A stretch of 34,901 bases of DNA from an uncultured Chlorobiaceae bacterium (GCA_903838025.1 CAILXB010000031.1:1-34901), one strand, 5' to 3'; counted from the first letter of the stretch, positions 3,185 through 31,591 are shown. The notes: generated from the sequence alone by a model not told the origin. Numbers and translations: made by a program.

Positions 3185-4567
3185 ATGAACAGCAAAAAAG
3201 AATTACTCTGGCAGAGCCGATTTTCATTACCCTTTGACCGCGACGCACTCTTGTTCTCATCGTCGGTTCATGTCGATAAAAAGCTCTATCGAGAGGATAT
3301 TCAGGGCTCTATTGCCCATGTCACCATGCTTTCCGAAGAGAATATTGTCAGTGTTGAAGATGCAGCCCAGATTATTACAGGACTCAGGGAAATTGAGAAT
3401 GAACTTACGACAGGGACACTTGTTCCCCACTGGGAGGACGAAGATATTCATACAGTCATTGAGAACCGGCTAAAAGAGAAGGTTGGGGCTGTCGCCGGAA
3501 AACTCCACTCTGGCCGAAGCCGCAACGATCAGGTAGCAACCGATACTCGCCTTTACATGCGTCGCCAGATTAACGAACTTCAGGAGGCCCTTGGAGGGCT
3601 GTTGCAAGTTCTTGTTGAAAAAGCAGAGTGCTACCACAAAACCATCATCTTCGGCTATACCCACCTGCAGCGGGCCCAGCCAATTTCCGCTGGCCACTAC
3701 TATCTGGCTTACTTTAACATGTTTAACCGCGACCGCCAACGGCTGCGGGATCTTACAAAAAGAGTGAATGTATCTCCTCTCGGTGCAGCCGCCTTTGCGG
3801 GAAGCACGCTACCGCTCAATGCACAAAGAACGGCAGTACTGCTTGGTTTTGACGATCTTTTTTCAAACAGTATTGATGCGGTCAGTGATCGCGATATTGT
3901 TATTGAGTTTATCTCCGACTGTTCCATGATCATGATGCATCTGTCGCGGTTTGCAGAAGACTTGATTCTCTGGAGCTCCTACGAGTTCGGCTATCTTGAA
4001 ATCAGCGACGCTTTTGCAACAGGGTCATCAATCATGCCACAGAAAAAAAATGCCGATATCGCCGAGCTGGTAAGGGGGAAAACGGGAAGAGTCTATGGGA
4101 ATTTAATGGCCATGCTAACCATCATGAAAGGACTCCCGCTCTCCTACAATCGCGACATGCAGGAAGATAAACAGCCTCTCTTCGACAGCGCGGAAACAAC
4201 GATCGAAAGTGTCACCATTTTTGCAAAACTGCTTGAGCATACCAAGCTGAAGGAAGAGCGGCTGGCCAAACTGACGGCGGAAGATCTCAGCCTTGCAACA
4301 GAAATAGCCGAATATCTTGTGCGCCGTCAAATTCCGTTCCGCGATGCCCACCGCATTACCGGTAAAATTGTTACCTGGAGCATCGCTTCGGATGTGACCC
4401 TGCCGAATATCCCGGTAGAAAAGTTCCGGGAGTTCTGTGAAGCTATTGATCCAGATATTTACGACTGCCTCAAGGCCGATGTGAGTGTGAACTCAAAAAA
4501 AACTCATGGCAGTTGCTCGTTTGACTCTGTTGCTCTCCAGATCGAAATGGCAAAAAAAGAGCTTTAA
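3185..4567 (+). CDS. argH: Argininosuccinate lyase
   Basis: 460 aa; fumarase/lyase signature [51 protein letters not shown]. Confidence 0.96.
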
Positions 4568-6621
4568 TGCGATGAGGGCAGAGCTTTGGCTGGTGACACA
4601 GCCTCAAGCTCTGCCAAATCGGCAACCACTGCCACCGCCTGGTTGAGCACGGCGTCTTTGCTCGGCCCTATGGCGGTATCAGGCTCCTTGACCCACTCTT
4701 TTTCAATTCTTTTTATCGTCTCTGTTTCTGATTTGACGGCTGCATCCTGAAGCGACACCGCCTTCTTTTTACGGATCTGATCAAGGGCATCCAGATCACG
4801 CAGATAGCTCTGGTAAAGGATATCTTTCGATGAGCGTTCCTGAAATTTTTGTCGAAGTATCTCGATTTTTTCCGGGTTAATCTCTGCTGTGGGCGTATAA
4901 AATGAGCGTGTTATGGTACTCCATGGCAAACTGCTGGTATAGGTATCCTCTCCAATCCTCGACATATCGATCATGGAGGGCATGGCAATATCCGCCTCGA
5001 CCCCCTTATGCTGGGTGCTTCCTCCGGAGATTCGGTAAAACTTTGCTATTGTCAATTTTATCTCGCCAAGATCTTGCTGCTTTCCGGTAACAGAATCGGC
5101 TTTTGAAAGTTTGAGAAGGCTTTGTACGGTTCCCTTTCCGAAGCTCCTCTCTCCAACAATAACACCGCGCGCATAATCCTGGATGGCCGCAGCAAAAATT
5201 TCAGATGCCGAGGCGCTGTAACGATTGACCAGCACTACAAGGGGGCCTCCATATTGTACCCTGCTGTCTTCGTCTTTGAGTACCATTTTTCCACCAGTCG
5301 AGCTGCTGATCTGAACGACGGGGCCACCGGGAAGAAAGAGTCCGCTAACACTTACAGCCTCTTCAAGCGAACCACCTCCATTATCGCGCAAATCAATAAC
5401 GATGCCGTCAACATGCTCGGCATTCAGTTCATTGAGGATGCGGGCAACATCGCGGCTTGTGCTGTTATAATTGCCCGTATGCTGCTGCTCACCTTCAAAA
5501 TCAAGGTAAAACGAGGGTATGGTAATGACACCAATTTTTTTCCCATTTTCCAGGATAATGCTTTTCTTTGCAGCCTGCTCCTGCAAATCAACCTTGTCGC
5601 GAACAAGTTCGATTATTTTTTCCGGCCCGCGTCCGCCCTGACTTGCCGGAAGAATTTTCAGGCGGACAAGGGTACCTTTCTTTCCCCGGATCAACTTTAC
5701 CACATCATTGATTCTCCAGCCGAAGACATCAACAATATCAGCCACCCTCCCCTGACCAACACCAACAATCTTGTCCCCTTTTTTCAAGGTAGTGCTTTTA
5801 AATGCAGGCCCTCCCGGAATAAGCTCATTGACAACAGTATGCTCCCCTTCAGTCTGGAGTTTTGCGCCAATTCCCTCAAGTGAACGACTCATGTCGATCT
5901 GAAAGTTTTGAAACTCGTCCACAGAGAAGTAGTTTGTATGGGGATCGAACGATGTTGTCAAAGCGTAAGTATAAGCATGGAATGCATCTTCCGGCGTCTG
6001 GCGATTCAAAAGATTGAGTCGGCTTGTAAAGCTTTTTGCAAGCGATCCCCGAATGGTTTTGTCACTTTCTCCGGAATATTTCAAATTGAGCCACTGGTAT
6101 TTCAGCTCTTTTTTCCACAGATCGGTAAGCTGAAGCAGGTTGGCGGGCCAGGGATCGCTCTTGCGGTCAAGGTCGAGGGTTTCCGGTAACGAAAAATCGA
6201 GGTGCACCGTGTCGGCCTGAGCCTTCATGAAACGCATCTTTTCCCTTGCCCGCTTGAGAAAAAGGTTATAGATATCGAATCCGGCCGTTACTTTACCAAC
6301 AAGAAATTCATCATCAATCGTATTACCATACCTCTTTCTGAGGCGCTCAATATCGCTTGCCAGAAAATAGCTTTTGCTGCCGTCAAGGTTTTCTATGTAG
6401 CGGTTAAATATCTGCTGCGACAGGGAGTCATTAACCGAGACTTTTCTGAAGTGGTTCTGCAGCAGATATTTATTGATGGAGTTACAAGCCTCTCTCTCTG
6501 CGATGGTAGGCTTGAGGGTCGTCACAGCGCTGACCACCGCAGATTCCCTGCTGTTTCTGGCAATAAGCGGAGAAACACTTCCCGACGCGATGATAAAAAG
6601 AACGAGACTTTTTCTGAGCAT
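4564..6621 (-). CDS. prc: Carboxy-terminal processing (tail-specific) protease, S41 family, Prc-type
   Basis: Signal-peptide-like N-terminus, PDZ region, S41 core [20 protein letters not shown], catalytic [19 protein letters not shown] and [13 protein letters not shown]. Stop overlaps the argH stop (TTAA). Confidence 0.93.
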
Positions 6622-7508: not shown

Positions 7509-9581
7509 TTAATTCAGCGAAGGCAACGTCCGGGTAATCGTGTGCCGTTGAATTGCTTTAAGTTCAGCCAGATCAGAAACAACTGCTGCGGACTGGTTGA
7601 GCACGGCGTCCCTGTTCTTGCCTTTGGTCGAATCCTGATCCACCACCCATTGACCCTCAATCTGCTTTATCTTCTCTATTTCCGATTTAAAAGCAGAGTC
7701 CTGAAGTGATACCGCCTTTTTTTTGCGAATCTGGTTCAGGGTATTCAAGTCGCGTAGATAACTTTGATAATAACGGCTCGTCAATGCCCGTTCCTGCTGC
7801 TTCTGTCGGAGCAACGCAATCTCTTCAGCTCTTACCTCTTCGGTCGGACGATAAAAGGAACGAGAAAGAGTACTCCACGGCAGGCTGCTGCTGTAGGTAT
7901 CCTCTCCCACAACCGAGGTATCAATCATGGATGGCATAAGAATGTCGGGCACAACACCTTTATGCTGAGTGCTGCCTCCTGAAATCCGGTAAAATTTTGC
8001 AATGGTAAGCTTTATTTCGCCAAGTTCAGGCTGTTTTCCAAAAAAAGCAAATGGCCTGAGCTCAGAGATTTTTTTGAGGCTTTGAACGGTACCCTTTCCG
8101 AACGTTCTCTCGCCAATGATAACTCCACGGCCATAATCCTGGATTGCTGCGGCAAATATTTCAGATGCAGATGCGCTGTAACGGTTAACAAGCACCGCGA
8201 GTGGTCCGCTGTAGAGCACCCTGCGATCTTCGTCCCTGAGCACCATTTTTCCCCCTGTCGAGTTACTGATTTGCACTACAGGGCCAGTTGAAATAAACAG
8301 TCCTGTAACATTCACCGACTCTTCAAGCGAACCTCCACCATTGTCACGCAAATCAATAACAATGCCATCAACATGTTCCGTATTAAGTTCATTCAGGATG
8401 CGGGCTACATCACGGCTTGTGCTGTTGAAATTGCCGGTGTTCTGCTGTTGACCTTCGAAATCAAGATAAAATGAAGGAATGGTGATAACACCGATTCGCT
8501 CTCCATTCTGGGAGATAATACTTTTCTTTGCCGCCTGTTCCTGCAAATCGACCTTCTCTCGCACAAGCATGACTATTTTAGCCGGTCCTCGTCCCCCCTG
8601 ACTTGCCGGGAGAATTTTAAGGCGGACGATGGTATTTTTCTTTCCACGGATCAATTTTACCACCTCGTTGATTCTCCAACCAAAAACATCAACAATATCA
8701 CCAACCTTTCCCTGACCAACACCAATAATTTTATCCCCTTTTTTCAAGGTATTGCTCTTGAATGCCGGACCTCCTGCAATAACCTCATTAACAACCGTAT
8801 ACTCGCTTTCGGTCTGCAGTTTTGCTCCAATTCCCTCAAGAGAACGACTCATGTCGATCTGAAAGTTTGCATATTCATCCGGAGAAAAATAGCTTGTATG
8901 CGGGTCAAACGATGTTGTCAGGGCGTAGGTATAAGCCTGAAATGCATCTTCCGGTTTCTGGCGGTTCAGAAGATTCAAGCGATTTGTAAAGCTTTTTGCA
9001 AGAGTTGCCCGGATGTTCTTGCTGTTTTCTCCCGAATATTTAAGGTTGAGCCACTGATATTTAAGCTCCTTTTTCCACAGTTCGGCAAGTTGACTCCGGT
9101 CAGCAGGCCATGGATCGTTTTTGCGGTCGAGGTCAAGGGTCTCCGGTAGTGAAAAATTAAAACGCACGGTATCAGCGGTTGCCTTCATATACCGCATTTT
9201 TTCTTTAGCCCGTTTAAGAAAAAAGTTGTAGACTCCAAAGCCGACATTTGCCTTGCCTGCAAGGAACTCATCATCAATGCGGTTTCCATAGACATGCCGG
9301 AGGCTTTCGACCTCGCTGGCCACAAAATAACTTTTGCTGCCGTCAAGATTGTCGATATAGCGATTGAGTATCTGTTGAGAAAGAGAGTCGTTAACCGATA
9401 TCTTTCTATAATGGTTCTGCAGAAGATATTGACCGATATATTTACTTGCTTCCTCCTGGGCGGCAGTTGGCCTGAGGGTCACGACCGCTATCGGCGCAAC
9501 GGTGTTTTCTGCGTGGAGTGTAGATACCGGCACAGTACTTCCCAATACAACAATCATGAGGAGCAAATTTTTTCTAACCAT
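7509..9581 (-). CDS. prc: Carboxy-terminal processing (tail-specific) protease, S41 family; paralog of 4564..6621
   Basis: Near-colinear with the protein at 4564..6621; catalytic [21 protein letters not shown] and [13 protein letters not shown] intact. The ORF track starts at 9668, but MVRKNLLLMIVVLGS at 9581 is the more plausible signal-peptide start. Confidence 0.92.
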   Translation of the reverse strand: MVRKNLLLMIVVLGSTVPVSTLHAENTVAPIAVVTLRPTAAQEEASKYIGQYLLQNHYRKISVNDSLSQQILNRYIDNLDGSKSYFVASEVESLRHVYGNRIDDEFLAGKANVGFGVYNFFLKRAKEKMRYMKATADTVRFNFSLPETLDLDRKNDPWPADRSQLAELWKKELKYQWLNLKYSGENSKNIRATLAKSFTNRLNLLNRQKPEDAFQAYTYALTTSFDPHTSYFSPDEYANFQIDMSRSLEGIGAKLQTESEYTVVNEVIAGGPAFKSNTLKKGDKIIGVGQGKVGDIVDVFGWRINEVVKLIRGKKNTIVRLKILPASQGGRGPAKIVMLVREKVDLQEQAAKKSIISQNGERIGVITIPSFYLDFEGQQQNTGNFNSTSRDVARILNELNTEHVDGIVIDLRDNGGGSLEESVNVTGLFISTGPVVQISNSTGGKMVLRDEDRRVLYSGPLAVLVNRYSASASEIFAAAIQDYGRGVIIGERTFGKGTVQSLKKISELRPFAFFGKQPELGEIKLTIAKFYRISGGSTQHKGVVPDILMPSMIDTSVVGEDTYSSSLPWSTLSRSFYRPTEEVRAEEIALLRQKQQERALTSRYYQSYLRDLNTLNQIRKKKAVSLQDSAFKSEIEKIKQIEGQWVVDQDSTKGKNRDAVLNQSAAVVSDLAELKAIQRHTITRTLPSLN

Positions 9582-9742
9582 TTTTTTTGCGTGGTGATTC
9601 AAGGGTTTAACGGCAGCATTCAAGCTGTTCTTGAATGAGAAAATAAATATACATATATTGAAAATCACTTAAAAAGCCTTTACCGGCAGAGCTCTTGTAG
9701 AGAAATTAATGCGCATAATAATAAATAAAAGAGAAGCTTTCA

Positions 9743-20948: not shown

Positions 20949-23033
20949 TTACGGTGGATTGAGAATTTTCTGAACGGCAACAAGAAGCGATTTGATGGGA
21001 AAGGGCTTCTGGAGATAGTTAACTCCCCGATCAAGCTTCCCTTCATTTTCAACGATGTCTGAGGAGTAACCGGACATAAAGAGAGTTTTAAGGTTTGGTG
21101 ATGTTATCTGGACTCTTTTTGAAAGGTCGCATCCGTTCATCTCAGGCAATACAACATCAGTTACAAGCAGTTGAATTTCCCCCTTATGCTCTTCGGCAAT
21201 CCGTATCGCCTCACTCGGTGAAGTTGCGTCAAGTACCCTATAGCCGCCATTTTCAAGCATGAGCTTGCAGATACTCAGGATATCGGGTTCATCTTCAACA
21301 AGCAGCACCACCACTTTATTCTGACCATCCAACACCGAAAAGTCGCTTTCATTCGGGTCAGCATAACCGACAGAGCGTGGAAACCATAGTGAAAAGGTGG
21401 TTCCCCTGCCAGGCTCGCTCAAGCATTCGATAAATGCGCCATTTTGCTTGAGGATTCCATAAATGGTTGCAAGGCCCATACCAGTCCCGATTCTCTTCTT
21501 TTTTGTTGTGAAAAAAGGTTCGAAAAGATGAGGTAGATCTTTTTTTTCAATCCCGCATCCATTATCTGTTACGGAAAGCGTCACATAATCGCCTGGCACC
21601 TTGCAGCAATGGCCAGTGACACATTCAGCTTTATAGACATGCATCCTGCCGGTTTTAATGGTAATTTTTCCAATACCCTCAATGGCATCCCTTGAATTGA
21701 CACAAAGGTTGCCAAGAATCAAATCTATTTGTGCAGGATCAATCTTGATCGAAGTACTCTGATGATGAGGCAACCATATCAAAGTGATATTTTCGCCGAT
21801 GAGCCGTCTCAAAACAGCAAGCATCCTTTCAACCATGACGTTAAGGTCAAGCACCAATGGCATCACGCACTGCTTGCGGGAAAAAGCAATAAGTTGATTG
21901 CAAAGAATGGACGATTGTTCAGTAGCCCTAAGAATCGCCTTCATATTTTCCAAAAGTGGCCCGTCAATAGACAACTGGTGTATGGCCATTTCAACGTTAC
22001 CGAGAATCACCCCCAGCATATTATTGAAATCGTGAGCGATACCTCCAGCGAGCTGGCCAACCAGTTCCATTTTTTGAGCCTGAACAAGTGACTCTTGTAT
22101 CTTTTTTTCCGACAACTCTGCACGTTTACGCGAAACAATATCCCAAGCAAAATTAACCAAGGCAGTCGCCATCATTGCATCATCCTCGTCATAATCATAA
22201 GACTTGCCTCCAACGCAAAGGAGTGCTGTAACAGCAGTTCCCTGTATCACTGGAAGAACGAGTATCCGCCGAGTGGCTGGATCGATATCCGTCGCACCAT
22301 CGCAATGTAGTGATGCGTTGTACGTATTGTCAATAACCAGCTCTCTTTTTTGTAGTACATCAGCCAACAACTTATCTTCATTCGGTGTGGTGTTGGATGG
22401 TCCTGCATCCAACATTTGTGTACCGGTTGAGAAGACGCGCTTTGAAAAGGTCGTCTGATCGTCGGCAACAATATGGAAAAAACCAATGGAGCTTTCCGTG
22501 ATGCGTTCAACCTCATCAATTGTGGCCCTCAACAACACCTCCAGAGAAGCGTTCTCTCCCATCTCATGAAGGCAAAGACGAAACGCCGACAAGGCTTCAA
22601 AGCGCTTGCGCTCGGTGATATCAATACTAACAGCAACAACGAAGGGCTCCTCATCAACGACTATCTTCCTGCCCGTTATCATGCGCCACTGAAATTTCGG
22701 ACCGCCCCTCAGCAAGACTCTCGCTTCACCAGTCTCTTCAATGCCGAGGTTCAGTACGTTCAGCATTTTTTCCAATGCAAACGCTCGGTCATCGGGATGA
22801 ATGACCTCCAACGCATTGGTCGAAAACATCTCTCTCTCATCTTTTCCGAGAACTTGCTCGCGATAATAGCTGTTCCACCAGACCAGTTGCCCATTGACAT
22901 CATTGATAGAAAAAGAGCCTGGGAGACTCTCGACCATCACTTTGGTAAAAACTCGCTCGCGCTTTGCAATTCCCTCTCTTTCAGCAGAAAACGCATCCAC
23001 ATTCTGATCACTATCGTCCACTTTCGTTGTCAT
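20949..23033 (-). CDS. Hybrid sensor histidine kinase (PAS - GAF - HisKA - HATPase - receiver), canonical H-box
   Basis: LVGQLAGGIAHDFNNMLGVILGN, NLCVNSRDAI, DNGCGIEKKDLPHLFEPFFTTKKKRIGTGMGLATIYG, VVLLVEDEPDI...LLVTDVVLPEMNG...QKPFPIKSL. Paralog of 795..2861. Confidence 0.95.
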   Translation of the reverse strand: MTTKVDDSDQNVDAFSAEREGIAKRERVFTKVMVESLPGSFSINDVNGQLVWWNSYYREQVLGKDEREMFSTNALEVIHPDDRAFALEKMLNVLNLGIEETGEARVLLRGGPKFQWRMITGRKIVVDEEPFVVAVSIDITERKRFEALSAFRLCLHEMGENASLEVLLRATIDEVERITESSIGFFHIVADDQTTFSKRVFSTGTQMLDAGPSNTTPNEDKLLADVLQKRELVIDNTYNASLHCDGATDIDPATRRILVLPVIQGTAVTALLCVGGKSYDYDEDDAMMATALVNFAWDIVSRKRAELSEKKIQESLVQAQKMELVGQLAGGIAHDFNNMLGVILGNVEMAIHQLSIDGPLLENMKAILRATEQSSILCNQLIAFSRKQCVMPLVLDLNVMVERMLAVLRRLIGENITLIWLPHHQSTSIKIDPAQIDLILGNLCVNSRDAIEGIGKITIKTGRMHVYKAECVTGHCCKVPGDYVTLSVTDNGCGIEKKDLPHLFEPFFTTKKKRIGTGMGLATIYGILKQNGAFIECLSEPGRGTTFSLWFPRSVGYADPNESDFSVLDGQNKVVVLLVEDEPDILSICKLMLENGGYRVLDATSPSEAIRIAEEHKGEIQLLVTDVVLPEMNGCDLSKRVQITSPNLKTLFMSGYSSDIVENEGKLDRGVNYLQKPFPIKSLLVAVQKILNPP

Positions 23034-25784: not shown

Positions 25785-26093
25785 ATGCTTGTCAAAAAAA
25801 TGTTGCCGCTTCATCCAGGAACGGTTCTGCTTGAAGAGTATCTCACCCCCATGAACCTCAGCGAAAACAGAGTGGCAGAGGATATGTGTATCCCTGTCTG
25901 GCGCATCAACGATATTATTGCGGGTAAACGGTGCATCACAGCCGAAACCGCCCTTCGCCTTGCCCGCTATTTCGGTACCCCTGCGCAGTTTTGGTTCGGT
26001 CTGCAGATGGATTACGATCTTAAAGTGGCCCTGAACAGTGACGGTGCAAGGATTGAGCGTGAAATCAAGGCTTACGACGAGTCGAGATTATAA
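25785..26093 (+). CDS. higA: HigA-family addiction module antidote / XRE HTH protein
   Basis: LPLHPGTVLLEEYLTPMNLSENRVAEDMCIPVWRINDIIAGKRCITAETALRLARYFGTPAQFWFGLQMDYDLKVA: HigA/VapI signature. Confidence 0.93.
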   Translation: MLVKKMLPLHPGTVLLEEYLTPMNLSENRVAEDMCIPVWRINDIIAGKRCITAETALRLARYFGTPAQFWFGLQMDYDLKVALNSDGARIEREIKAYDESRL

Positions 26094-26316: not shown

Positions 26317-27474
26317 CTATCCGATCTTTTTTGAACCGGAAATGATAGCCTGAACAAGTTTCTCAATCGTAGCGTCATCCATCAGCACCGGAATATTCAG
26401 GCAGATACTGCTGCGCAACATGATGCCGGTTTTTGGCCAGAGAGCTTCAAGATCAGCATCACAATAGCGGTCGTACTCCCCAAGGAGGTGGCCCCATACA
26501 CCAGCAAAATGCCAGTCGAGCGCTTCAGGAAGAATTTTGGTGCCGAAACCGCACTCCGTGAGGTGTGCTTCAAACTGTAACGCCGCTTCACGATCCCTCA
26601 CCCTGAAAATAAGGGTATCTCCCTGTGCTCCCGCTTCATCACTGAACGGCCTGAACAGAAGATTATCAAGATGACAAATCGCCGTCTTGATTTTCTTTTT
26701 GTTCTCCCTTGATTTCGAAAGAATGGTCTCAATTTTTGCAAGCTGTGCCAGTCCGATGGCCGCCGTCACTTCACTGAGACGCAAGTTCAGCCCTTTTGAG
26801 CGTCGAGGATCTTTTCCTCTCGGTAACCCAGGCTGGTGCATGTGGCCGTGGTCAGAGAACTCTGCTGCACGATCATAGATCTCCTTGTCGTTCGTCACAA
26901 TAATTCCACCCTCACCCGTATGGAGCGTCTTGCCCGCATCAAAGGAGAATGAGGCGACACTTCCGAAGGTGCCGAGCTTCTGCCCCTTGTAGGTGGCTCC
27001 GAGTGCCTGTGCTGCATCCTCAATCAGTATCAGACCATGCTTGCGGCAAAGTGCGGAAAGCTCATCCATTTTTGGTGAGGCCCACATGGGAATCGCTACC
27101 ACAGCTTTTGTCGCTGGCGTAATAGCCTTTTCAACCTCAAGCGGATCAAGATGATAGGTCTCGTCAAGCTCAACCGGCACCGGCACTGCACCAAGCGCAC
27201 TGATGGCCTCAACCGGAGCAATAAAAGTCCATGCTGTTGTGATAACCTCATCACCAGGCCCAATCCCGGCTCCCGCAAGAGCGCAGTGGATGGCCGCAGT
27301 GCCGGAAGAGACTGCGTGGGCATACTTCACACCCATCCATGCGGCAAATTTCTCCTCAAACTCTCTCGCCTTGTAATTTCCCCCGCCGTAACGGTACAAA
27401 TTGACTTTTTCGCGGCTGAAAAGCTCCTGTATTTCAGCCAATTCCTCACGTCCAATTAATTCAGCACCCGCCAT
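26317..27474 (-). CDS. DegT/DnrJ/EryC1/StrS-family PLP aminotransferase, KdnA-like
   Basis: AHAVSSGTAAIHCALAGAGIGPGDEVITTAWTFIAPVEAI, LIEDAAQALGATYKGQKLGTFGSVASFSFDAGKTLHTGEGG, FSDHGHMH, GLNLRLSEVTAAIGLAQL. Confidence 0.93.
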   Translation of the reverse strand: MAGAELIGREELAEIQELFSREKVNLYRYGGGNYKAREFEEKFAAWMGVKYAHAVSSGTAAIHCALAGAGIGPGDEVITTAWTFIAPVEAISALGAVPVPVELDETYHLDPLEVEKAITPATKAVVAIPMWASPKMDELSALCRKHGLILIEDAAQALGATYKGQKLGTFGSVASFSFDAGKTLHTGEGGIIVTNDKEIYDRAAEFSDHGHMHQPGLPRGKDPRRSKGLNLRLSEVTAAIGLAQLAKIETILSKSRENKKKIKTAICHLDNLLFRPFSDEAGAQGDTLIFRVRDREAALQFEAHLTECGFGTKILPEALDWHFAGVWGHLLGEYDRYCDADLEALWPKTGIMLRSSICLNIPVLMDDATIEKLVQAIISGSKKIG

Positions 27475-27497
27475 AGTATGTATCCTGCTTTTTTTAT

Positions 27498-28628
27498 TTA
27501 GGTTAATTGAGTAACAACTGCCAGTGCCGACTCTTCAGTAAATTCAACCGGGTTGCCCGAAAAAGAGCCTTTCAGCGCTTCCGAAGCGTTATGGGCAAAT
27601 TCAGCGGCATTACCTTTCCCATACCCGTAAGGCACAAGCGAAGGTATCTGCAGTTGCCGATAGAGTTGATCCATCTCTTCAAGCAATTCAACAGTAGCCT
27701 CTTTTGGTGACGGTGTTGAGCGCATAGGGTTCAGAATGGCATATTTTTCATATCCATGAAGATGGTTATAGCGCATCACCTCCTTGAGAAAAATTGCACC
27801 GGCAAGACCGTGCGGCACACGATGCTTTACACCAAGATAGTAGGCAAAGCCATTGGTTGGACCATCTCCGGAATTCATGAGTGCTGCCGTGCCACAGACA
27901 CTGCCAATTGCAAGGTCAAGGCGCGACTCCGCCCGGTCAAGCTGGTTTTGTTGCAACGCATAAAAAGTGCGCTGGAATCCCTCGACGGCAAAAATCCTGC
28001 TTAGCGCAGTATGCTTTATTGAACCGAAACTATCAACGCAATGCACAAGGCTGTCCATAGCCGATGCAATAACGCTTTCAAGAGGAGCGGTCATGGAGAG
28101 TTGTGGATCAATAACCGCTTTTTTGGGAAAATTTTTCCGGCTGTTAATGCCGAGTTTACGCCCCTCGATCTCATCAATAAAAACCGCATTGTAGCTGATT
28201 TCAGCGCCGCTGCCGAGCAGTGAGGGTACTGTTACAAGCGGTAACGGATCGTTTACCCCTGAAGGAAATCCCTTGAGCGAAAGCGCCGGGACAGTGTTGG
28301 TCATAAGCAGTGCGATCCCTTTGCCAAGATCAAGGGTGCTTCCGCCACCGATGGCTACAATGGCATCCGGAGGATTGCCCCTGAAAAACTCGGCGACCGT
28401 TTCGAGATAAGTGTAGGTAGGCTCTCCGCCAAAATCGTTGCAATAGAGCACGGCATTAGGATAGGCTGAGGTGAAGTTCCTCAAAACTTCCTGAAAATAG
28501 AGCGTTCCGGCTATGTTGGCATCGTAGATAATGCCAGGTTTCTTCACCGACAATTGTGCCAGATGCTCATGCAACTTCAGTGCTTCGTTAACCCCGATAA
28601 CAAGATCAGTGGATAAAAAAAAATTCAT
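27498..28628 (-). CDS. Iron-containing alcohol dehydrogenase family protein, KdnB-like (candidate sugar-acid oxidase)
   Basis: DAIVAIGGGSTLDLGKGIALLMTN, TVPSLLGSGAEISYNAVFID, RKLGINSRKNFPKKAVIDPQL, MDSLVHCVDS, VPHGLAGAIFLKEVMRYN. Confidence 0.9.
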   Translation of the reverse strand: MNFFLSTDLVIGVNEALKLHEHLAQLSVKKPGIIYDANIAGTLYFQEVLRNFTSAYPNAVLYCNDFGGEPTYTYLETVAEFFRGNPPDAIVAIGGGSTLDLGKGIALLMTNTVPALSLKGFPSGVNDPLPLVTVPSLLGSGAEISYNAVFIDEIEGRKLGINSRKNFPKKAVIDPQLSMTAPLESVIASAMDSLVHCVDSFGSIKHTALSRIFAVEGFQRTFYALQQNQLDRAESRLDLAIGSVCGTAALMNSGDGPTNGFAYYLGVKHRVPHGLAGAIFLKEVMRYNHLHGYEKYAILNPMRSTPSPKEATVELLEEMDQLYRQLQIPSLVPYGYGKGNAAEFAHNASEALKGSFSGNPVEFTEESALAVVTQLT

Positions 28629-28640
28629 AAAAACAGTGAT

Positions 28641-29354
28641 CTAATGGTTCTGTTGACTTGTATCCTGAATGCCCAGGTTTTTTTTATAAAAATAATACTC
28701 AATCAAATCGATCTCCTCAAGAGTATCAATCTCCCATGTCTGCCAGAACTCCATTTCATAGGCAGAGAGTTTTTCGCCAATTCTGTTGTCAAAGGCAAGA
28801 AGGGTTTCAGGCTTGAAAATATAGATTGAGCCATTTTCAATAAACTGCGTTGGACGATCCTGCCGCATCCCGCGATTACGGTAATCAAAATTGACACTCT
28901 CCCATTTTCCGGCCCGTGATTCCCACAGGGTAAGATCATCGGCTCTGGTGACCGAGATCAACGAATCGGCCCCTTCCCGAAGAAAAAGCTCTACAGCAAG
29001 ATCGATATCATCAGGTTTTCGCAAGGGGGAGGTAGCCTGCAAAAAAACAATCGTACCGATCGGCATGGCGTACTCTTTTTCAATAACCCCGGCGGCATGC
29101 AGAATAGCCGATTCGGAGCTTGCCTTGTCGCCAGCAAGTTCCGGAGGGCGAACAATTACCTCCGCCCCATACATCGACGCAACGTTGGCTATGGCAGCAT
29201 CGTCGGTGGTGACAAAAACTTTCTCAATACTTGCCGATGCCAGTGCCTGTAAAACACTCCATGCCAGCAGCGGCTTTCCTGCCACAGGATAAATATTTTT
29301 CTCTTTCAGCCCTTTCGAGCCGCCTCTTGCAGGAATAATTGCTACGGTATGCAT
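28641..29354 (-). CDS. Acylneuraminate/CMP-sugar cytidylyltransferase (NeuA-like)
   Basis: [83 protein letters not shown]. Confidence 0.92.
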
Positions 29355-29378
29355 AAAAAAACTGTTGTGCTTGTGTTG

Positions 29379-30335
29379 TCAACCCTCAATCACCTGCCGG
29401 CAAACATCAGCGATTTTTATTGCGGCAGAGTTATTCTGTAACGGAGTAAGCGATTGTAACTCTTCGGGGCTAAGGCCGCAATGCACAATCTTGTTCAGGG
29501 CAGAGCCCACAAAAATAGTTGATGAAAACTGTGCAATCAGCATCACAGAGTTGGCAATCATCTCTTCGGTTTTGCCCTCACTGAAAACAAGGCTATCCGG
29601 CGCGTAGCGTTCAATTTCCCTTGTCGCCCTTGCTATATTCTCATTGGGATGCAATTTAAAAAGAAGTTGGCGTCCATCTGCTATTTCAAGATACTTCCGG
29701 ATGTTTTTGACGCGATTCTCATAAATAAAGGTCTCGCGGTTATCTGATGTACAGACAAGCACATAATCACGATGACCAAAATCGTTGCGGAGATACTTCG
29801 CGCAATTGTCGAAATTTGGAATGCTGGTCACCTCAAGCTTTGCCGGGCTCACCCCCTTGCGGATAAAAAGATCGCGATAGCCTTCACTGGCAACGCAGAA
29901 CTTCTCATAAGCATCAGAGAGACCGGTTGTAGCAGTGCCCGCAATCCAGCGAGGAATCCACTGAAAGTTCCTGGCGAGATGATAAAGGATCGTTTCTGGT
30001 TCAGTCATCCCCTCCTGTACCAGCACAATTTTCTTTCGCCGTATATGTTTTGGGACAATAAGATCAGTGCAGGTCACCACCAGATCATAAGCATGGGCAA
30101 AACCACCAATATCAAGTTTCAACTGGTTGATACGAAGATAGTCGAGCGTACGCTCAGAGCGCTTGCGGCCCATAATGGTAAACTCAAGCAGCCCTCTTTC
30201 ACTGGCAGATCCAAGAAGTCCGTCACTGAAAAACGATGAGAAATATTGGTCGTACTCCGTCATACACCCGGCAATCTGATGCATCTGGGTGGTCTGGTTC
30301 ATTGAGCCGCAAATAAATAACACTTTCTTCTTCAT
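29379..30335 (-). CDS. Putative GT-B-like glycosyltransferase / capsule-LPS biosynthesis protein
   Basis: KKKVLFICGSMNQTTQMHQIAGCM N-terminus; LLFKLHPNENIARATREIERYAPDSLVFSEGKTEEMIANSVMLIAQFSSTIFVGSALNKIV resembles the C-terminal half of GT-B/glycerophosphotransferase-like enzymes; operon context. Confidence 0.55.
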   Translation of the reverse strand: MKKKVLFICGSMNQTTQMHQIAGCMTEYDQYFSSFFSDGLLGSASERGLLEFTIMGRKRSERTLDYLRINQLKLDIGGFAHAYDLVVTCTDLIVPKHIRRKKIVLVQEGMTEPETILYHLARNFQWIPRWIAGTATTGLSDAYEKFCVASEGYRDLFIRKGVSPAKLEVTSIPNFDNCAKYLRNDFGHRDYVLVCTSDNRETFIYENRVKNIRKYLEIADGRQLLFKLHPNENIARATREIERYAPDSLVFSEGKTEEMIANSVMLIAQFSSTIFVGSALNKIVHCGLSPEELQSLTPLQNNSAAIKIADVCRQVIEG

Positions 30336-31393
30336 AACACCCTGCTCTTCACGCCTTCAGCATCGCGCAGATGGACACCTGAAAAAAACATGACACCGTA
30401 ACCGAAACTGTACCAGAGAAGTTCCTTGAAGCGCCTCAAAAGCACAAAAGCGCCATAGTCAGCGACATCATTCATGCCAAGTGCCTGAAAAAAGAGTCGA
30501 TAGCCCAACTCCTGCACACCGAGTCCTGACGGGATGAAAAAAAAGAGAACACGGAGCATGGTAATTGCCGTATCCATAGCAAGCACCTGCAAAAAAGAGA
30601 GTTCAACGCCAAGTAACCGCAGTATGATGTAACTCTCAATTGCAAGCATGAACCAGGCAAGAATATAAAGAAGCAAGACAAAAACAAGCCGAACGGCAAA
30701 AGGTGCATCAAAACTCTTCAACTCCTCATCGGTATCAAGAAATCCTCTCTCCCGGGCAAGCAGCCATGTTTTCACCTTTTTAAAGGGCACCAGCATCAAG
30801 AGCCTATGCACATTGTGAGCAGCGTTCCCATTAAGCAAAAGCAAAAGCAAAAAAAGGAAAACAAAAAACATAATTGTGCCAGCTCCAACCATAATGTAAC
30901 CAAGCACACCTACAGGAAATATCGGAATGGAGATCGTCTGCAGAAGTGAAAATCCGGCGACAGCGCCGATAATGGTATAAATTCCTTGTGCCACACCAAG
31001 CATAAGTTTGCGTACGGCAACACTTGCAACTCCGGCTGGAAGAGGAATTCCCATAAAACGGTGACAAAGAAAAGGGCGAAGAGGTTCACCAACCGCTACT
31101 CCGGCAGGAAGCGTCATCGAAATGGTTTCGGCTATAAACTGAATCTTCAGCAACTTTGAAAACGATATTGCCGTTATGCTCGGTGGAAAGACCCTTATCC
31201 ATGCAAACGTTTCCAAAAGATGGAGCGCAAGAAAAGGCAAAAGGATAACTACGGAGGGAAAGCCGATTGATGAGATACGGCCAATCACACTGGCGAAGTC
31301 AATTTGGCGAAACTGAAACACAACCAGAACAATGCCGAGGCCAAGACCGATGTAACCAGCCAGGGTACTGCCGGATTTTTTCGTCAATTGCAT
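30332..31393 (-). CDS. Flippase-like / lysylphosphatidylglycerol synthase TM-region (UPF0104, YbhN-like) integral membrane protein
   Basis: Multiple TM segments, FFFIPSGLGVQELGYRLFFQALGM motif; likely start MQLTKKSG at 31393, track ORF opens at 31450. 4-nt overlap with the next gene. Confidence 0.82.
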   Translation of the reverse strand: MQLTKKSGSTLAGYIGLGLGIVLVVFQFRQIDFASVIGRISSIGFPSVVILLPFLALHLLETFAWIRVFPPSITAISFSKLLKIQFIAETISMTLPAGVAVGEPLRPFLCHRFMGIPLPAGVASVAVRKLMLGVAQGIYTIIGAVAGFSLLQTISIPIFPVGVLGYIMVGAGTIMFFVFLFLLLLLLNGNAAHNVHRLLMLVPFKKVKTWLLARERGFLDTDEELKSFDAPFAVRLVFVLLLYILAWFMLAIESYIILRLLGVELSFLQVLAMDTAITMLRVLFFFIPSGLGVQELGYRLFFQALGMNDVADYGAFVLLRRFKELLWYSFGYGVMFFSGVHLRDAEGVKSRVL

Positions 31394-31591
31394 AAATAAT
31401 CGGGAGAGAAGGCTAAAAAAACATTCAAAACTCATTTCCACAGTTTGCAAAGATAAGAATGTATGGTTAAATATTTATTAATCATTGAAATTGCCATGAA
31501 CGTACCACTCAACCAGTTTGTGGTGCCCTTGTGAAATTCCGAACGGTTTACCCTGTTACAGGCTCTTGTCACCAACAAAAACCTTGCACTG

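Follow-up and report, generated by a model that had tools for sequence, protein, structure and literature searches.

A group of five genes in a 34,901-nucleotide stretch of DNA from an uncultured Chlorobiaceae bacterium (GCA_903838025.1, CAILXB010000031.1:1-34901; hereafter the window) raises the question of which sugar its products make and use. The window stems from a Chlorobiaceae metagenome-assembled genome that is 80% complete and comprises 329 contigs. In transcription order, the genes encode a membrane protein, a glycosyltransferase-like (GT-like) protein, a NeuA-type cytidylyltransferase, an iron-containing alcohol dehydrogenase (Fe-ADH), and a DegT family aminotransferase. An earlier note on this DNA had read the last two as KdnB and KdnA, the enzymes for 8-amino-3,8-dideoxy-octulosonate (Kdo8N) in Shewanella oneidensis, and had proposed oxidation and transamination of an ulosonate followed by NeuA-type activation. 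This general route appears supported by sequence comparison, in which the aminotransferase falls into a KdnA-like superclade and KdnA leads the other solved relatives by about 110 bits. With moderate confidence, we propose that the operon makes and uses a terminally aminated nonulosonate activated with cytidine monophosphate (CMP), formed by KdnB/KdnA-like amination at C9 of a product of the synthase NeuB.

Conservation of the operon

The operon is a core trait of Chlorobiaceae. Its aminotransferase was detected in 83 of 86 genomes of the family (E<=1e-30), in the great majority at 80-99% identity, and the same cluster is present in named Chlorobiaceae and Chlorobaculum records. The gene order, whose conservation the earlier note had proposed to check, is unchanged in all of eight divergent Chlorobiaceae loci, and the genes therefore cluster far more than expected by chance. 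A gene for an acyl-CoA synthetase adjoins the operon in eight divergent genomes. The apparent loss of Fe-ADH and DegT in two genomes (G006 and G013) coincides with contig ends and looks like an effect of these. Fe-ADH was not found in 12 genomes of other Chlorobiales families (E<=1e-40), and its sole match outside Chlorobiaceae in a 393-genome sample of the phylum comes from another Bacteroidota genome (G196). No relatives of the operon were found in viral contigs, and phages yielded generic DegT proteins only and no closer relatives. The best of the plasmid matches to Fe-ADH lies in Priestia, in an unrelated context.

Comparison of the enzyme pair with KdnA and KdnB

The best solved relative of the window aminotransferase is KdnA (5k8b, 272 bits, 4.9e-80), followed by a match of 163 bits. 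The motifs FSDHGHxH and GLNxRxSE, which the earlier note had named, are kept between the Chlorobi proteins and KdnA (FSDHGHMH and GLNLRLSE in the window, FSDHGHDH and GLNFRISE in 5k8b). In the tree, the Chlorobi and SAR86 sequences group together (100/99), G196 joins them at 91/93, and the adjacent KdnA clade has a support of 100/99; the KdnA-like superclade including the window protein and members from Desulfobacterota is supported by 95/92. A position inside the Shewanella KdnA clade was ruled out by a forced grouping (p-AU 1e-92). The identification with KdnA thus holds at the level of the superclade, but the window protein belongs to a separate clade.

For the dehydrogenase, identity with KdnB was not borne out. 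The window protein scores 62 bits with KdnB (5k8c) versus 97 bits with 1,3-propanediol dehydrogenase, and the Chlorobi, SAR86 and G196 proteins form a clade (100/100) separate from the KdnB clade (100/100), in a tree with some long branches and weak resolution of the deep order between these clades. When its AlphaFold2 model (pLDDT 91) was compared by fold, KdnB ranked 46th and the nearest folds were simple-alcohol dehydrogenases. The window protein has the residues D192/H196/Y263/H273. Both this protein and KdnB carry the RKLGxN motif (RKLGINS in the window and RKLGLNS in Shewanella KdnB, as the earlier note had stated) and a tyrosine replacing the third metal-ligand histidine; these features are absent from FucO, YiaY and AdhE of E. 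coli. The tyrosine is not specific, however, as the Priestia Fe-ADH has it too. In principle, the pair may work like KdnB/KdnA, outside the Kdo (3-deoxy-D-manno-octulosonate) clade.

As a system, the operon resembles KdnB/KdnA in the pairing of Fe-ADH with DegT, the shared aminotransferase superclade, and the RKLGxNS, FSDHGHxH and GLNxRxSE motifs. It differs by its separate clades, its NeuA-type and GT neighbours in place of KdsB/KdsA, its gene order, and the tie of its relatives to NeuB.

Fe-ADHs are broad in substrate, and the fold relations described above, together with a match to the PsrA model TIGR03405 (115 bits versus a cut-off of 423.7), would also suit a substrate that is no ulosonate at all, for example a phosphonate or a small alcohol handled by a PsrA-type Fe-ADH and CMP-phosphonate chemistry. 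We regard this as very improbable, since the cytidylyltransferase is of the NeuA and not of the phosphonate type, the aminotransferase is KdnA-like, NeuB occurs in the operons of relatives, and no phosphonate genes were present in any cluster examined. Phosphoenolpyruvate (PEP) mutase, which the earlier note had named as a sign against the pathway, was not seen in the relatives' clusters read, and no genome-wide search for it was made.

Clues to the substrate

The 17-letter motif cited in the earlier note for the NeuA-type enzyme is present. Like the NeuA/PseF CMP-nonulosonate cytidylyltransferases, the window enzyme has an N-terminal PARGGSKG, TSPLR and NGSIY, and a C-terminal EIDT; unlike them, it stays under the cut-off of PseF, its top NCBIfam match (114 versus 205.7 bits), and it is 50% identical to its SAR86 homologue. 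Its best PDB match is the CMP-Neu5Ac synthetase 6ifd (121 bits). A NeuA-type gene is present in eight of eight Chlorobiaceae genomes sampled, and the strong cytidylyltransferase matches in single-contig genomes of the family comprise only this enzyme and KdsB.

KdsB was found in all eight Chlorobiaceae genomes examined, KdsA in all but the incomplete window genome, and KdsC-type phosphatases of the haloacid dehalogenase (HAD) superfamily twice per complete genome. The operon clusters themselves contain neither KdsA nor KdsB, which lie elsewhere in the genomes. Since KdsA, KdsC and KdsB are separately present, a role of NeuA as a replacement of KdsB was ruled out, and the contrast that the earlier note had drawn with Shewanella is misleading. 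There, KdsB reportedly serves Kdo8N activation, as Gattis et al. are said to have described in 2013. In one single-contig genome (G016:C1:2232082-2232812; L074, L075), the KdsA match consists of two overlapping pieces in different frames, reflecting a frameshift or a sequencing error.

The gene neighbourhoods of relatives, read like the gene identities, the operon, its conservation and the clades from sequence, point to a nonulosonate. In SAR86 (L193), NeuA, Fe-ADH, DegT and a CBS-NeuB-SAF-TIM fusion lie back to back; beside the NeuA identity given above, Fe-ADH and DegT are 45% and 60% identical to the window proteins. In G196 (L172), NeuB, NeuC and NeuD, all above their NCBIfam cut-offs, are clustered with the Fe-ADH/DegT pair and a NeuA-like gene. 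Most loci of the KdnA/KdnB clades hold a Kdo gene instead: among those with a KdnB-clade Fe-ADH, KdsB lies nearby in four Shewanella and KdsA in six Bacteroidota loci, and NeuB in none. Upstream of the SAR86 operon (L193:978-5497), there are also an HpcH-type aldolase-like gene, a true KdsB, a large GT-like protein, and a 2-hydroxyacid dehydrogenase.

A short NeuB of 290 amino acids is present in 84 of 86 Chlorobiaceae genomes and is the sole NeuB-family gene in the single-contig ones. The HAD adjoining it fits best the model for the phosphatase of Kdn (2-keto-3-deoxy-nononate) 9-phosphate, with 139-144 bits versus 114-125 for KdsC, and stays under the 180-bit cut-off of NCBIfam NF058599. The HAD adjoining KdsA fits KdsC best, with 107-130 versus 67-89 bits. 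A NeuB synthase beside a phosphatase implies a phosphorylated intermediate, like that of the route via mannose 6-phosphate and Kdn 9-phosphate (PMC6200933). A similar arrangement is found in the Kdn synthesis of Bacteroides thetaiotaomicron (synthase BT1714, Kdn-9-phosphate phosphatase BT1713, CMP-Kdn synthetase): in Chlorobi, too, a NeuB-family synthase adjoins a KdsC-type HAD that is nearest to the Kdn-9-phosphate phosphatase model, and the genome holds a NeuA-type activator. In contrast to that system, NeuB-HAD and NeuA lie at separate Chlorobi loci, the Fe-ADH and DegT steps are additional, and the scores are under the equivalog cut-offs. A nonulosonate is favoured over Kdo both by the NeuB genes in the closest operons elsewhere and by the core NeuB of Chlorobiaceae with such a phosphatase beside it. 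The earlier note had called the substrate unknown, as the window holds no synthase; this statement can now be narrowed.

Kdo8N is the chief rival, and a rather unlikely one: Fe-ADH and DegT would act on C8 of Kdo made by KdsA and KdsC, and the NeuA-type enzyme rather than KdsB would activate Kdo8N for the core of the lipooligosaccharide (LOS). A NeuA-type enzyme is unexpected in this role given the presence of KdsB, said to serve Kdo8N in Shewanella, while the Fe-ADH lies outside the KdnB clade and the closest operons carry NeuB. The KdnA-like aminotransferase, the RKLGxNS and tyrosine features shared with KdnB, and the Kdo genes of Chlorobiaceae are consistent with Kdo8N, as is the KdsB next to the pair in a Synergistaceae relative, a caveat that concerns a locus outside both clades. 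Furthermore, the LOS of Chlorobaculum tepidum contains KDO, only KDO being reported from it, and its outer-membrane lipid structure is described as not established (PMC12285230).

Within the nonulosonates, another base sugar or another carbon would be conceivable, such as C8 or C9 amination of a 5-acetamido sugar. The NeuB of both SAR86 and G196 scores best as N-acetylneuraminate synthase, which would agree with such a sugar, as would the PseF match of the Chlorobi NeuA. Nevertheless, we hold it to be quite improbable, since the Chlorobi loci read contain no NeuC or other amino-sugar genes and the Kdn-9-phosphate-phosphatase-like HAD beside NeuB would be superfluous in a route without phosphorylated sugars (PMC6200933).

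Several observations weigh against C9 amination of a NeuB product. Outside Chlorobi, the linkage to NeuB was seen in two loci only, with NeuBs that are long and SAF-bearing or full-length; the true KdsB in SAR86 lies about 6 kb upstream, and the placement of G196 in the aminotransferase tree has a support of only 91/93. The Chlorobi NeuA, NeuB and HAD all score under the NCBIfam equivalog cut-offs, and NeuB was never next to the operon in the Chlorobiaceae loci read. In addition, of the 12 other Chlorobiales genomes, which are without Fe-ADH at the cut-off and mostly without a NeuA-type gene, 11 hold the short NeuB at 72-76% identity. In Chlorobiaceae, we assign the NeuB product to the operon on grounds of economy and from the operons of relatives, not from direct linkage.

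In the sister families (G086-G097; L278-L286), the NeuA-type operon is lacking and the short NeuB is usually accompanied by a KdsC-type HAD; neither NeuA nor a GT was found next to NeuB. A strict co-occurrence of NeuB and operon thus fails outside Chlorobiaceae, and as the sister families keep NeuB without the operon, NeuB is older than the operon and has another use there. A close short NeuB in Bacteriovoracaceae (L259:1464-3664) adjoins a fusion of a SIS-like isomerase domain with a KdsC-type HAD as well as a DegT gene.

Proposed pathway, operon layout and implications

For the C9-aminated nonulosonate, the chemistry of every step, the precise identity of the base sugar and the tie of the distant NeuB-HAD pair to the operon are inferred. 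The short NeuB, encoded elsewhere, would condense PEP and a hexose 6-phosphate, which for Kdn would be mannose 6-phosphate, to a nonulosonate 9-phosphate, from which the adjoining HAD would strip the phosphate to leave a free primary alcohol at C9, oxidisable by Fe-ADH. Fe-ADH would then oxidise C9 to the aldehyde, DegT would aminate it with pyridoxal 5′-phosphate, and the NeuA-type enzyme would form the CMP derivative. Finally, a glycan or lipid of the envelope may receive the sugar from the GT-B-like protein, assisted by the membrane protein.

The GT-like protein matched no Pfam family and no PDB sequence, and its orthologues show only weak matches (E>0.01) to Epimerase_2, Glyphos_transf and polysialyltransferase. 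The motifs QEG, KLHPNE and SST are invariant across 13 orthologues; QEG, HP and SST resemble motifs of GT-B enzymes that use CMP- or CDP-sugars. Its AlphaFold2 model is poor (pLDDT 56); the fold matches are general GT-B ones, with a polysialyltransferase in 48th place, and nothing more specific than a GT-B fold is supported.

With Kdn as base sugar, the product would be 9-amino-9-deoxy-Kdn, an isomer of neuraminic acid (C9H17NO8). That this compound is the product and also the head group of the Chlorobium aminoglycosphingolipid, transferred to ceramide by the operon GT, seems unlikely to us. The head group of this lipid was reportedly given as neuraminic acid by Jensen et al. in 1991. An aminoglycosphingolipid has been recorded from Chlorobium limicola (PMC11762602), and the Kdn-linked sphingolipid of Emiliania huxleyi offers a parallel for transfer to ceramide (PMC6200933). 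A search of the available literature for neuraminic or nonulosonic acid in Chlorobium, or for 9-amino nonulosonate biosynthesis, found no match.

The five tightly spaced minus-strand open reading frames (ORFs) placed at 26317-31450 by the earlier note were confirmed (Table 1). In transcription order, Pfam assigns LPG_synthase_TM to the first, no family to the GT-like protein, and CTP_transf_3, Fe-ADH and DegT to the other three. The spacing is operon-like: the first two genes overlap by 4 bp, and the following gaps measure 24, 12 and 23 bp. The ORF of the membrane protein extends to a TTG at 31450, the start given previously; because homologues align only from residue ~18-20, the gene itself stands but probably begins at the ATG at 31393. 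No sigma-70-like sites above chance were found in the intergenic region upstream.

Table 1. Positions of the operon genes and the upstream region in the window
Feature	Position	Strand	Evidence
Polytopic membrane protein, LPG_synthase_TM/UPF0104 (flippase-like), operon gene 1	30332..31393	-	PF03706 2.8e-26
Putative GT-B glycosyltransferase, proposed CMP-sugar user	29379..30335	-	Invariant motifs; low-confidence GT-B-like model
NeuA/PseF-type CMP-ulosonate cytidylyltransferase	28641..29354	-	CTP_transf_3 9.9e-26
Iron-containing ADH, proposed oxidase of ulosonate terminal CH2OH	27498..28628	-	Fe-ADH 3e-33
KdnA-like DegT aminotransferase, proposed to aminate terminal aldehyde	26317..27474	-	PF01041 4.5e-79; 5k8b 4.9e-80; tree
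Intergenic region between operon and divergent acyl-CoA synthetase gene; presumed operon promoter	31394..31591		Gene layout

Elsewhere in the window, a HigA-like antitoxin gene lies at 25785-26093, with no toxin partner visible among the listed ORFs. Two similar genes for C-terminal-processing-protease-like proteins lie near each other on the minus strand (4564-6621 and 7509-9668) and are apparent duplicates, and two hybrid histidine kinases that resemble each other and carry sensor and receiver regions (795-2861 and 20949-23033) are apparent paralogues.

The operon probably represents an unreported variation of a pathway that had been known for Kdo alone, a shorter sugar. Our results suggest that the conversion of the terminal hydroxyl of an ulosonate to an amine, as performed by KdnA/KdnB, is also used on nine-carbon, sialic acid-like sugars, in phyla as distant as those of Chlorobiaceae and SAR86. 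They also caution against labelling such Fe-ADH/DegT pairs as Kdo8N enzymes by homology alone. For the green sulfur bacteria, they would provide a near-universal surface-sugar pathway for which specific masses and enzyme assays become testable.

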